Shown: positions 8,526 through 14,999 of the stretch, in pieces
How positions within the stretch are numbered: position 1 is the first letter of the stretch
Layout: every line of letters begins with the position of its first letter
Source of the DNA: Mycolicibacterium litorale
Lineage (GTDB): Bacteria > Actinomycetota > Actinomycetes > Mycobacteriales > Mycobacteriaceae
DNA: 64,000 nucleotides
Assembly: GCF_010731695.1 (NCBI RefSeq)
Contig: NZ_AP022586.1
Span: forward strand, 1,178,001 to 1,242,000
Direction of reading: 5' to 3'
Position numbers and translations under genes: made by a program
The notes under the pieces: generated by a model
What the model was told of the DNA's origin: nothing
The model's input: the letters and a program-made list of their open reading frames with translations, nothing else
The model's database searches: none

Positions 8526-9955
8526 TCCGCCGGCTGGTCGCCCTCGCGGCGGTCACGTTGCTGGCCGGATGTGCCCAAGGCGGTGACACCGACGCCCCCT
8601 CGGCCGCTCCGGCGACAACGCCGCCGGCGCAGGTCGGTCCGGCCGAGGCCAGGGCGATCGCCAAGGAGGCCTACATCTACGGCTTCCCGATCGTCGACAA
8701 CTACCGGGTGCAGTACGCCTACTTCGTCGACAAGCAGGATCCCGAGTACAAGGGCGGCTGGAACGAGATCCACAGCACCGCACGGGTGTACACACCAGAG
8801 GACACGGCGGTGCAGACGCCGAACTCCGACACCCCGTATTCGATGCTCGGCGCGGACCTGCGCGCCGAACCGCTGGTGCTGACGGTTCCGCCGATCGAGC
8901 CGGACCGCTATTACTCGCTGCAGTTCATCAACGGCTACACCAACAACATCGCCTACGTCGGCAGCCGGACCACCGGCAACGGCGGCGGGAAGTACCTGTT
9001 TGCCGGACCCGGCTGGCAGGGCGACACACCGCAGGGCATCGACGAGGTCATCCGGTCCGACACCGACCTGGCCGGCGTCATCTACCGGACCCAGCTGTTC
9101 GGACCGTCCGACCTCGAAAGCGTCAAACGGATTCAGGCCGGCTATCAGGTGGCGCCGCTGTCGGTGTACCTCAACGCGCCACCGCCGCCCGGCGCCCCGC
9201 CGATCGACTTCGTCCCGCCGCTCACCCCCGAGCAGCAGGTGAATTCGCCGCAATTCTTCGAGATCCTCAACTTCGCGCTGCGCACCGCGCCGGTGCTGCC
9301 CGACGAACGCGATATGCGCAACCGGTTCGCGCGCATCGGCATCGGTCCGGACGGGGGTTTCGACGCCGACACCCTCACCCCGGAGATGCGACAGGCCGTC
9401 GAGGACGGCATGGCCGATGCGTGGGCCGAGTTCAACACGTTCAAGAAGAACGAGCTCGACACCGGAAAGGTGGGATCAGCCCAGCTGTTCGGCACCGCCG
9501 CGGACCTCAAGGGCAACTACCTCCACCGGATGGCCGGTGCCGTGCTCGGCATCTACGGCAACACCGCGGCCGAAGCGCTCTACCCGGGCCTGGTCGAGGA
9601 TTCCGACGGCCAACCGCTCACCGGCGCCAACAACTACACCGTCCGCTTCGCGCCGGGTCAGTTGCCGCCGGTCAACGCGTTCTGGTCGCTGACGATGTAC
9701 GAGCTGCCGCAGAGTCAGTTGGTGCCCAACGAGCTGCAGCGCTATCTGATCAACTCGCCCATGTTGCCGAGCCTGGTGCCCGACCCCGACGGCGGCTACA
9801 CCTTCTTCGTGCAGAACGCCTCGCCCGGCGCAGGCAAGGAGTCGAACTGGCTGCCCGCGCCGAAGGGACCGTTCCAGATGGTGCTGCGGCTGTACTGGCC
9901 GAAGCCCGATGCGCTCAACGGCACGTGGAAGCCACCGCAGGTGGTGCGCGGCTAG
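8522..9955 (+). CDS. DUF1254/DUF1214 domain lipoprotein
   Basis: 477 residues. A short basic N-terminus, a hydrophobic stretch and LLAGC (Cys about 18) give a lipobox, so it is predicted to be lipid-anchored and extracytoplasmic. The mature part starts with EARAIAKEAYIYGFPIVDNYRVQY and VQTPNSDTPYSM, typical of DUF1254. It ends with the DUF1214-like AFWSLTMYELPQSQLVPNELQRYLINS and WLPAPKGPFQMVLRLYWPK. The GTG start shares bases with the SDR stop. The function of the family is undefined. Its stop interlocks with that of the convergent PAC2 gene (CTAG). Confidence 0.88.
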   Translation: MIRRLVALAAVTLLAGCAQGGDTDAPSAAPATTPPAQVGPAEARAIAKEAYIYGFPIVDNYRVQYAYFVDKQDPEYKGGWNEIHSTARVYTPEDTAVQTPNSDTPYSMLGADLRAEPLVLTVPPIEPDRYYSLQFINGYTNNIAYVGSRTTGNGGGKYLFAGPGWQGDTPQGIDEVIRSDTDLAGVIYRTQLFGPSDLESVKRIQAGYQVAPLSVYLNAPPPPGAPPIDFVPPLTPEQQVNSPQFFEILNFALRTAPVLPDERDMRNRFARIGIGPDGGFDADTLTPEMRQAVEDGMADAWAEFNTFKKNELDTGKVGSAQLFGTAADLKGNYLHRMAGAVLGIYGNTAAEALYPGLVEDSDGQPLTGANNYTVRFAPGQLPPVNAFWSLTMYELPQSQLVPNELQRYLINSPMLPSLVPDPDGGYTFFVQNASPGAGKESNWLPAPKGPFQMVLRLYWPKPDALNGTWKPPQVVRG

Positions 9956-10842
9956 CTCCGGAAACCCGGGCCCCTTCGCCGCAGATACCGCTCGAACTCG
10001 GCGGCCAGGGCGTCGCCGTCGATCTTGCCCAGCGCCTCGGTCATGTCGACCTCGGCGTCGCCGCGCTGTTCGAGGGAGGCGACGTACTCGGCGATCTCGT
10101 CGTCCTCGGCGGTCATCTCGGTGACCGCCTCCTCCCACTCCTCGGCCTGGGTGGGCAGGTCGGCCAGCGGCACCTCGATGTCGAGGACGTCCTCGACGCG
10201 ACGCAGCAGCGCGACGGTGGCTTTCGGGTTGGGCGGCTGCGACACGTAGTGCGGCACCGCAGCCCAGAACGTGACCGCGGGAATCCCGGCCTGCACGCAG
10301 GCGTCCTGGAACACCCCGGCGATGCCGGTCGGTCCCTCGTACCGGGTCTCCTCGAGACCGAAGAACTTCGCCGACTCCGACGAGTAGGCCGCGCCGGACA
10401 CCGGCACGGGCCGGGTGTGCGGGGTGTCGGCGAGCAGCGCACCCAGGATCACGACGGTCTGCACGTTGAGCTTGTCGGCGATGTTGAGCAGTTCCGCGCA
10501 GAACGTGCGCCAGCGCATGTTCGGTTCGACGCCGTGCATCAACACGATGTCGCGGTCGGCGCCGGGCGGGCGGCAGTGGGAGATCCGCATCGACGGCCAC
10601 ACCAGCTCGCGGGTCACCCCGTCGATCTGCCGGATCACCGGGCGATTGACCTGGTAGTCGTAGTACGACTCGTCGTCGATCTCGGCGATCGTCTCGGCCT
10701 CCCAGATCGCGTCGAGGTGCTCGAGCGCGTCACTGGCGGCGTCACCGGCGTCGTTCCAGCCCTCGAACGCCGCCACGACGATGGCGTCCCGCAACTGCGG
10801 CAGGTCAGGTCCCTTCGGGGGGCCGAAGTCCGATGGGGTCAC
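9952..10842 (-). CDS. PAC2 family protein
   Basis: 296 residues. PAC2 (proteasome-assembling-chaperone-2-like) family, corresponding to Rv2125. Signature segments are IVVAAFEGWNDAGDAASDAL near the N-terminus, DRDIVLMHGVEPNMRWRTF, TVVILGALLADTPHTRPV, and VPAVTFWAAVPHYVSQPPNPKATVALL-type sequence in the middle, with an acidic region before the C-terminus. The GTG start at 10842 has TAGGCT 6 nt upstream, so it is probably leaderless. The bacterial role is unknown; a proteasome link is only a family-name association, although proteasome genes do lie 17 kb away. Confidence 0.88.
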   Translation of the reverse strand: MTPSDFGPPKGPDLPQLRDAIVVAAFEGWNDAGDAASDALEHLDAIWEAETIAEIDDESYYDYQVNRPVIRQIDGVTRELVWPSMRISHCRPPGADRDIVLMHGVEPNMRWRTFCAELLNIADKLNVQTVVILGALLADTPHTRPVPVSGAAYSSESAKFFGLEETRYEGPTGIAGVFQDACVQAGIPAVTFWAAVPHYVSQPPNPKATVALLRRVEDVLDIEVPLADLPTQAEEWEEAVTEMTAEDDEIAEYVASLEQRGDAEVDMTEALGKIDGDALAAEFERYLRRRGPGFRS

Positions 10843-10912: not shown

Positions 10913-10918
10913 TATCCT
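10913..10918 (+). promoter_or_regulatory. Leaderless -10 element retained by the metH remnant
   Basis: TATCCT lies 7 nt before the GTG at 10926. This is the promoter expected for the original gene whose first 25 codons survive here, and it may still be active. Confidence 0.45.
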
Positions 10919-10925
10919 GTGCCGT

Positions 10926-11021
10926 GTGAGTGCCGCCGAACCGCGCGTCCGCGACACCGACCTCCTCGGCGCCCTGTCGACGCGGGTTCCGGTGGGCGAC
11001 AACGTGGTCGAGACGAAATAG
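10926..11021 (+). pseudogene. 5' remnant of a displaced, different-type metH
   Basis: A GTG opens a 31-codon frame containing TDLLGALSTRVPVGD, then NVVETK and a TAG stop. As I remember it, mycobacterial MetH of the Rv2124c type begins ...TDLLDxLSxRVxxGDGAMGTQLQ; the match stops exactly at GD, before the conserved GAMGT. Codon 25 ends at 11000, the likely breakpoint. The full metH downstream has the same start region but another subtype ([12 protein letters not shown]), so this is not a duplicated 5' end of that gene. A leaderless -10 (10913) remains. It could now act as a short leader ORF. Confidence 0.55.
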
Positions 11022-11134: not shown

Positions 11135-11140
11135 TAGACT
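11135..11140 (+). promoter_or_regulatory. -10 element of metH
   Basis: TAGACT fits TANNNT and predicts transcription starting at about 11147, exactly where the first paired strand of the riboswitch begins (11148). Confidence 0.5.
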
Positions 11141-11146
11141 TTCCGG

Positions 11147-11249
11147 GGTCGAGAGGCGTTGCAACGGGTTCTGGCGGGGTCCCTTCCCCGTCCGGTATCC
11201 GCCACGCTCGGCAGAGTCAAGGACGCCTTCCGCTACGGAAGGAGTGCGC
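11147..11249 (+). promoter_or_regulatory. S-adenosylhomocysteine (SAH) riboswitch candidate controlling metH
   Basis: The leader has the SAH-riboswitch order. P1 pairs 11148-11153 (GUCGAG) with 11207-11212 (CUCGGC). The conserved UGCAAC is at 11160-11165. A long P2 runs 11165-11201: CGGGU/AUCCG outside, CUGG/CCGG inside, and CGGGG/CCCCG around a UCCCUU loop. GCCA-GCUCGG follows directly before and in P1. The closing pseudoknot is AGGCGU (11154-11159) with ACGCCU (11223-11228). The pseudoknot 3' strand overlaps a 7-bp hairpin, CCUUCCG (11226-11232) with CGGAAGG (11236-11242), that masks the SD GGAAGGAG (11237-11244). Ligand binding would therefore free the SD and switch metH on, as known for this class. 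Confidence 0.7.

Positions 11250-14999
<3,750 letters not shown>

Follow-up and report, generated by a model that had tools for sequence, protein, structure and literature searches.

The window, that is the whole stretch of DNA that was analysed, comprises 64,000 nucleotides of Mycolicibacterium litorale and includes metH together with its leader. An initial annotation had proposed a riboswitch for S-adenosylhomocysteine (SAH), a by-product of methylation, in this leader, acting on the Shine-Dalgarno (SD) sequence of metH, and every element that it named was present when we read the sequence directly. Features that it did not mention are two swapped core bases, a metH relic upstream, and the absence of the switch from those members of the genus that have another type of metH. 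The features of the locus are as follows, in window coordinates.

9952–10842, minus strand: PAC2-family gene, a frequent upstream neighbour of metH (neighbour gene comparison)
10913–10918, plus strand: TATCCT, the −10 of a relic type A metH, 7 nt 5′ of its GTG (by-eye comparison with type A leaders)
10926–11021, plus strand: relic of a type A metH N-terminus (VSAAEPRVRDTDLLGALSTRVPVGDNVVETK, then a stop; tblastn E 6e-5, 103 upstream regions)
11135–11140, plus strand: TAGACT, the −10 of the metH promoter (read directly)
11148–11153, plus strand: 5′ strand of P1, GUCGAG (sequence; RF01057 match; covariation at the two outer pairs)
11154–11159, plus strand: 5′ strand of the pseudoknot, AGGCGU (both covariation sets; RNAalifold unprompted)
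11160–11164, plus strand: UGCAA, joining strand of the putative ligand pocket (leader alignment; UGCAAC spans 11160–11165)
11165–11201, plus strand: P2 hairpin, variable in length and covarying (both covariation sets)
11201–11204, 11205 and 11206–11211, plus strand: GCCA, C and GCUCGG (read directly)
11202–11206, plus strand: CCACG, putative pocket strand (protein-found metH leaders and pattern-found elements)
11207–11212, plus strand: 3′ strand of P1, CUCGGC (sequence; 60-element covariation)
11218–11222, plus strand: CAAGG, with G11221 replacing the C found in the Rfam consensus, CAACG
11223–11228, plus strand: 3′ strand of the pseudoknot, ACGCCU (covariation; its last three bases double as anti-SD)
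11226–11242, plus strand: SD-masking hairpin CCUUCCG-CUA-CGGAAGG, competitor of the pseudoknot (folding; stems 11226–11232 and 11236–11242)
11237–11243, plus strand: SD sequence GGAAGGA (read directly)
11250–14999, plus strand: metH, a type B cobalamin-dependent methionine synthase (TIGR02082, 1741 bits)

The likely start of metH is the GTG at 11250, since the alternative GTG at 11244 abuts the SD sequence.

The 17-nt core of the leader, GAGAGGCGTTGCAACGG, is present as a single copy in 131 of the 148 genomes of the genus, and the reversed core pattern in none of the 148. When coordinates were compared, 129 of the 131 cores lay 118–441 nt upstream of a metH HMM match on the same strand, and the remaining two (G545 and G578) had no metH row among the matches listed. 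Because of this lineage evidence we accept the element as real. Starting from proteins close to the MetH of the window, the motif was found at 33 of 34 loci, the exception (L063) having a degraded leader, and 46 other metH loci that were fetched gave nine more. A looser pattern run over the order matched at 127 sites, spread over 103 of 348 genomes, as against three genomes for the reversed pattern. One of the 127 sites (in G103) reads CCAGG and has no such pseudoknot partner, and looks like chance. In a thin sample of the phylum the pattern was present in 10 of 396 genomes, and a covariance-model search of these 396, in which the best 10 candidates per genome were scored, was likewise positive in 10.

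Two alignments were used to examine whether the helices covary. The first holds 70 leaders, left from 79 regex matches after removal of duplicates and of matches with more than three substitutions, which by their look were chance matches in coding DNA; one retained leader (L105) had its end lengthened by hand. Of the 1190 cells of this set 97.7% are paired, and changes on both sides of a pair occur in P1, in P2 and in the pseudoknot. Three of five covariation measures were reached by none of 500 shuffles, and the other two, the pairs changed on both sides and the further pair types, by 20 and 8 of 500, so the case for covariation within this close set appears moderate. The second alignment holds 60 more diverse elements, in which pairing holds for 95.5% of 1080 cells, both sides have changed in 8 of 18 pairs, and no measure of the five was reached by any of 500 shuffles. 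Pairing, which the initial annotation had expected to find in orthologous leaders, is thus kept in both sets. When the strands were slid out of register as a control, 27–44% of cells paired in the 60-element set, and the real alignments stood above every slid control in both sets. Changes on both sides affect two outer pairs of P1 and four of the six pairs of P2 in the diverse set. The search pattern that yielded many of the 60 elements holds the inner four P1 pairs and the middle pseudoknot letters constant, so the support from covariation is supplied by P2, the outer pairs of P1 and the two ends of the pseudoknot.

Given the 60-element alignment and no structure, RNAalifold returned the pseudoknot and P2, and P1 was absent from its output. 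Full pairing at all six pseudoknot positions is found in 114 of 117 distinct elements; the pattern largely dictates the middle pairs and leaves the outer ones free. At the last pair, which the pattern does not constrain, UA occurs in 68, CG in 46, UG in two and CU in one of the 117, and at the second GC occurs in 115 and AU in two. (The block pattern behind these 117 elements did not match L210, L063 and L151, and L178–L207 were not submitted to it.) The initial annotation was right that the pseudoknot differs in sequence from the usual GAGCGC/GCGCUC of Rfam; the difference is compensatory, three of the six pairs in the window having changed on both sides. P1 is also missing from the lowest-energy fold of the single leader, in which GGCGU (11155–11159) pairs with ACGCU (11204–11208) instead. 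This alternative helix competes with both P1 and the pseudoknot and is perhaps the ligand-free state. The fold energy of the leader was equalled by 8 of 200 shuffles (z −1.8), using programs that cannot model a pseudoknot.

A scan of the whole window with Rfam 15 at the curated (gathering) cut-offs gave no match. With open thresholds the best match in the leader was RF01057, the SAH riboswitch, at 11145–11235 with 21.8 bits (E 0.074 in 501 nt), so that the model named in the initial annotation does recognise the leader, at a score below its curated cut-off of 37 bits. Over the whole genome the E value of the leader is 0.19 and an unrelated place, a 45-nt stretch at 931293 without the core when judged by eye, scores 22 bits; for these reasons the Rfam match alone proves little. 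Matches near the leader to Moco-II, L31-Actinobacteria and ZMP-ZTP were weak, far below the respective cut-offs, and were set aside; two of them fall within metH. None of 20 mycobacterial metH loci tested reached any Rfam cut-off. Relatives with the same core do exceed that of RF01057, with 42.6 bits (L146), 39.7 bits (L112) and 37.3 bits (L007), and among 119 relatives 86 had an RF01057 match at E ≤ 0.5 and two were above the cut-off, not every match being traced to metH. A model built from such leaders, that of the window included (R1), found one strong place in the M. litorale genome at 92.2 bits, with a runner-up at 17.4. Membership of the SAH class is thus supported by homology through the relatives that pass the cut-off, and not by the window's own score. 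This suggests that an actinobacterial branch of the class goes largely unseen at the Rfam cut-off.

The genes that follow the element were surveyed at 40 sites hand-picked from the 127 order-level sites. At 23 of them the gene is metH (one a remnant) and at 12 ahcY (one with metK first); of the rest, three have MOSC-domain-like genes, one an adenosine deaminase and one nothing clear. Further sites carry ahcY (L140, L141, L146 and L147, one of the four checked in Pfam), metH (L142 and L143, by likeness), a methyltransferase (L149) and a MOSC-like gene (L148, by eye). The element's genes are therefore mostly those of SAH production and removal, and in gene context the window, with metH, and its relatives, with ahcY, metH or adenosine deaminase, agree with the SAH class. 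The adenosine deaminase stands at L217, adenosine being the other product of SAH hydrolysis. MOSC-domain-like genes lie under the element at L148, L208, L231 and L239 and have no plain link to SAH; of the three MOSC-like proteins in the survey one was matched in Pfam, and the other two, without an NCBIfam match, were named by eye. At L209 the element is followed by an apparently decayed metH of which the C-terminal part alone is recognisable.

We compared the element with RF01057 as represented by the Rfam consensus, whose core reads UGCAA ... CCAGGCUCGG ... CAACG, and by one natural sequence, the ahcY leader of Burkholderia glumae (L151, 55.2 bits). The latter has CCAGGCUCGG and GAACG, its 3′ pseudoknot strand having been spotted by eye past a long linker. 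This was the one clear canonical member when plasmids were searched; a short match on a P. phymatum plasmid gave no SAH hit at E ≤ 0.1, and a search of viral contigs and phages found no canonical member. Both forms have the same order of parts, namely P1, UGC(A/G)A, P2, CCAnGCUCGG, a linker, AAnG and a 6-bp pseudoknot, and they share SAH-removal genes and, as proposed here, the logic of an on-switch. They differ in the pseudoknot, which is AGGCG(U/C) with (A/G)CGCCU in the actinobacterial form and GAGCGC with GCGCUC in RF01057, and in the core, where CCA-C-GC and AA-G-G stand in place of CCA-G-GC and AA-C-G. The mycobacterial form also has a variable and often long P2, a short linker, and metH as the target in the genus.

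UGC, CCA, GCUCG and AA are kept in the 70 aligned leaders, whose selection tolerated up to three substitutions, and within mycobacteria most core positions are invariant. C11205 and G11221 replace the G and C of the consensus CCAGG and CAACG. The same swap is found in 33 of 33 protein-found mycobacterial metH leaders and in 117 of 117 actinobacterial elements; the block pattern fixes most core letters, and the latter count informs only on the letters left free, among them these two positions, at each of which C or G was allowed. The two bases presumably form a true pair, an interpretation that we draw from one change at the level of the subfamily. In the numbering of the solved aptamer, G11161 and C11162 are presumably G15 and C16, A11204 presumably A29, and one of the swapped bases presumably C46. 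All four are named as SAH contacts in a simulation paper, with C46 contacting the SAH tail (PMC7057144).

With the swap falling on a presumed tail contact, the same fold could have been re-tuned for another ligand (e.g., SAM, or SAM and SAH together), and the joint change of both positions in every leader and element compared, as well as the MOSC-domain genes that bear the element, would be in keeping with this. However, the positions that presumably match G15, C16 and A29 are kept, the genes mostly serve SAH removal (ahcY, metH, adenosine deaminase), and metK comes first at just the one site of 40, ahead of ahcY. We consider a different ligand unlikely and retain SAH as the preferred ligand. 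The presumed inverted core pair offers a natural test of which pocket contacts are needed for SAH recognition.

A TANNNT motif lies 12 or 13 nt upstream of P1 in 57 of 69 distinct leaders; eight others have it at 14–17 nt and four have none within the examined range. In the window the −10 that the initial annotation had placed at 11135 reads TAGACT. From this spacing the transcript probably begins with the aptamer. Downstream, folds of 36 nt starting at the 3′ strand of the pseudoknot paired at least three bases of that strand in all 70 leaders. An automatic count, requiring at least four paired bases in the first SD-like match, found the SD masked in 54 of the 70, and this count misses cases where the match begins outside the stem. 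The mean z of the downstream hairpin over the 70 leaders was only −1.4. In the window the SD hairpin alone is worth −10.3 kcal/mol, and P1 and P2 with this hairpin come to −39.7 kcal/mol, compared with −32.6 kcal/mol for P1 and P2 with a residual 4-bp hairpin, the pseudoknot not being counted. The pseudoknot takes up three of the seven anti-SD bases (11226–11228) and a 4-bp hairpin can form from the rest. The clean, mutually exclusive switch described in the initial annotation holds to the extent that pseudoknot and hairpin have a strand in common, and is not perfectly clean, given the residual hairpin.

Since a hairpin that shares the pseudoknot 3′ strand masks the SD of the window, an SAH-on switch is the best reading of this leader; its ligand, direction and translational step are what we infer from these features. 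We put the probability at about 0.84 that the leader is a divergent, cis-acting actinobacterial riboswitch of the SAH class that controls metH, predicted to be an on-switch. Transcription would start at or beside P1, and P1, P2 and the pseudoknot would wrap the ligand. Without SAH, the pseudoknot 3′ strand would join the hairpin at 11226–11242 and metH would be translated poorly. SAH would stabilise the pseudoknot, breaking three hairpin pairs and exposing AGGAG, and the additional MetH would convert homocysteine to methionine and so pull SAH hydrolysis forward. In the known SAH riboswitch, according to the same simulation paper, ahcY is raised by SAH (PMC7057144).

At two sites linked to ahcY, L146 (391–490) and L236 (minus strand), a hairpin that uses the pseudoknot strand is followed by a U-run and looks like a terminator. 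These two are probably transcriptional on-switches, and going by them the switching logic of the metH leader can apparently act on termination too. They lend some weight to transcription attenuation at metH, which, together with an off-switch, we consider quite unlikely: the hairpin in the window holds the SD and has no U-run after it, and in both designs the pseudoknot that the ligand stabilises opposes the off hairpin, which argues for an on-switch. A protein-bound leader, or a passive element of stability or translation, that resembles the SAH motif by chance is very unlikely. The weak single-sequence Rfam score and the unrelated 22-bit place might suggest it, but the same-core relatives exceed the cut-off, with scores from 37 to 43 bits, and the SAH class is matched in topology, in the UGCAA and GCUCGG blocks and in the gene set.

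In a 2013 comparative study one sentence notes SAH riboswitches also in Mycobacteriaceae (PMC3766115), and the SAH regulon of Proteobacteria is reported to include ahcY, metF and at times metH (PMC4239095). The passages of PMC2864571 on the SAM/SAH riboswitch (RF01727) do not mention an SAH riboswitch at mycobacterial metH; the SAM/SAH riboswitch resembles the present element as a small aptamer class for SAM and SAH and differs in being reported before metK in Rhodobacterales. RF01727 had no match in the metH leader of the window, and neither had any cobalamin-family RNA in Rfam. The mycobacterial metE cobalamin riboswitch controls the partner methionine synthase (PMC8088520) and is a different RNA with a different ligand and gene. 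Word searches of the main texts of PMC8088520 and PMC12713380, which deal with the MetE/MetH pair, found no mention of SAH. If our reading is true, mycobacterial MetH is under a methylation-balance signal, alongside the cobalamin control already known for MetE.

The exact core is absent from 17 genus genomes, and 11 of these carry another metH (type A), with 87–100% identity to that of G057 over the N-terminal 300 residues and 34% identity to the MetH of the window (eight compared). One more (G560) has the element with a single difference (L164), and in the remaining five (G005, G008, G059, G522 and G572) the metH N-terminus is missing or cut. The part of the genus that has type A metH is without the switch. 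Instead, by eye, TANNNT lies 6–7 nt upstream of the GTG in 10 of the 11 type A leaders, as in leaderless genes. None of the genomes compared has both types of metH N-terminus, and for eight of the 11 type A genes about 2.6 kb of downstream sequence each showed no remnant of the switch or of a type B metH. In a FastTree phylogeny, from a sample picked by likeness to type B and with 14 of 92 rows thinned beforehand, type A forms a separate branch and mycobacterial type B nests beside the riboswitch-bearing metH of Nocardioides.

Between its PAC2 gene and the switch the window retains a decayed type A N-terminus of 31 codons. Type A relics that are better or partly preserved precede the element elsewhere, as at L041 (80% over 40 residues, E 3e-17), in G578 (79% over 61 residues), and at L033 and L035. 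Most leaders have no recognisable relic, since just 21 of 103 upstream regions match at E ≤ 0.1, several of these being the same locus and some non-mycobacterial. The PAC2 gene adjoins metH in all 12 regions of L153–L164 and, across L036–L068 and L109, at 33 of 34 loci. As we read these sequences, one metH allele would have replaced the other at the locus, in either direction. Simple displacement of type A by the switched metH was our first view and was dropped as the sole account. A tandem state followed by loss of either metH is equally plausible, because the PAC2-metH order is also found at 36 of 46 other actinobacterial loci. A fuller scenario, an actinobacterial SAH subclass with an inverted pocket pair and an altered discrimination of SAH, SAM and related compounds that spread with metH and replaced a leaderless metH in most of the genus, is unlikely in our view. 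With a switched metH and a leaderless-looking one exchanged at the same locus, what the switch is worth can be tested comparatively. At L063, from about 1880 to 2000, the metH leader has lost the 5′ half of the element, and by eye a type A metH-like sequence seemingly occupies its position.
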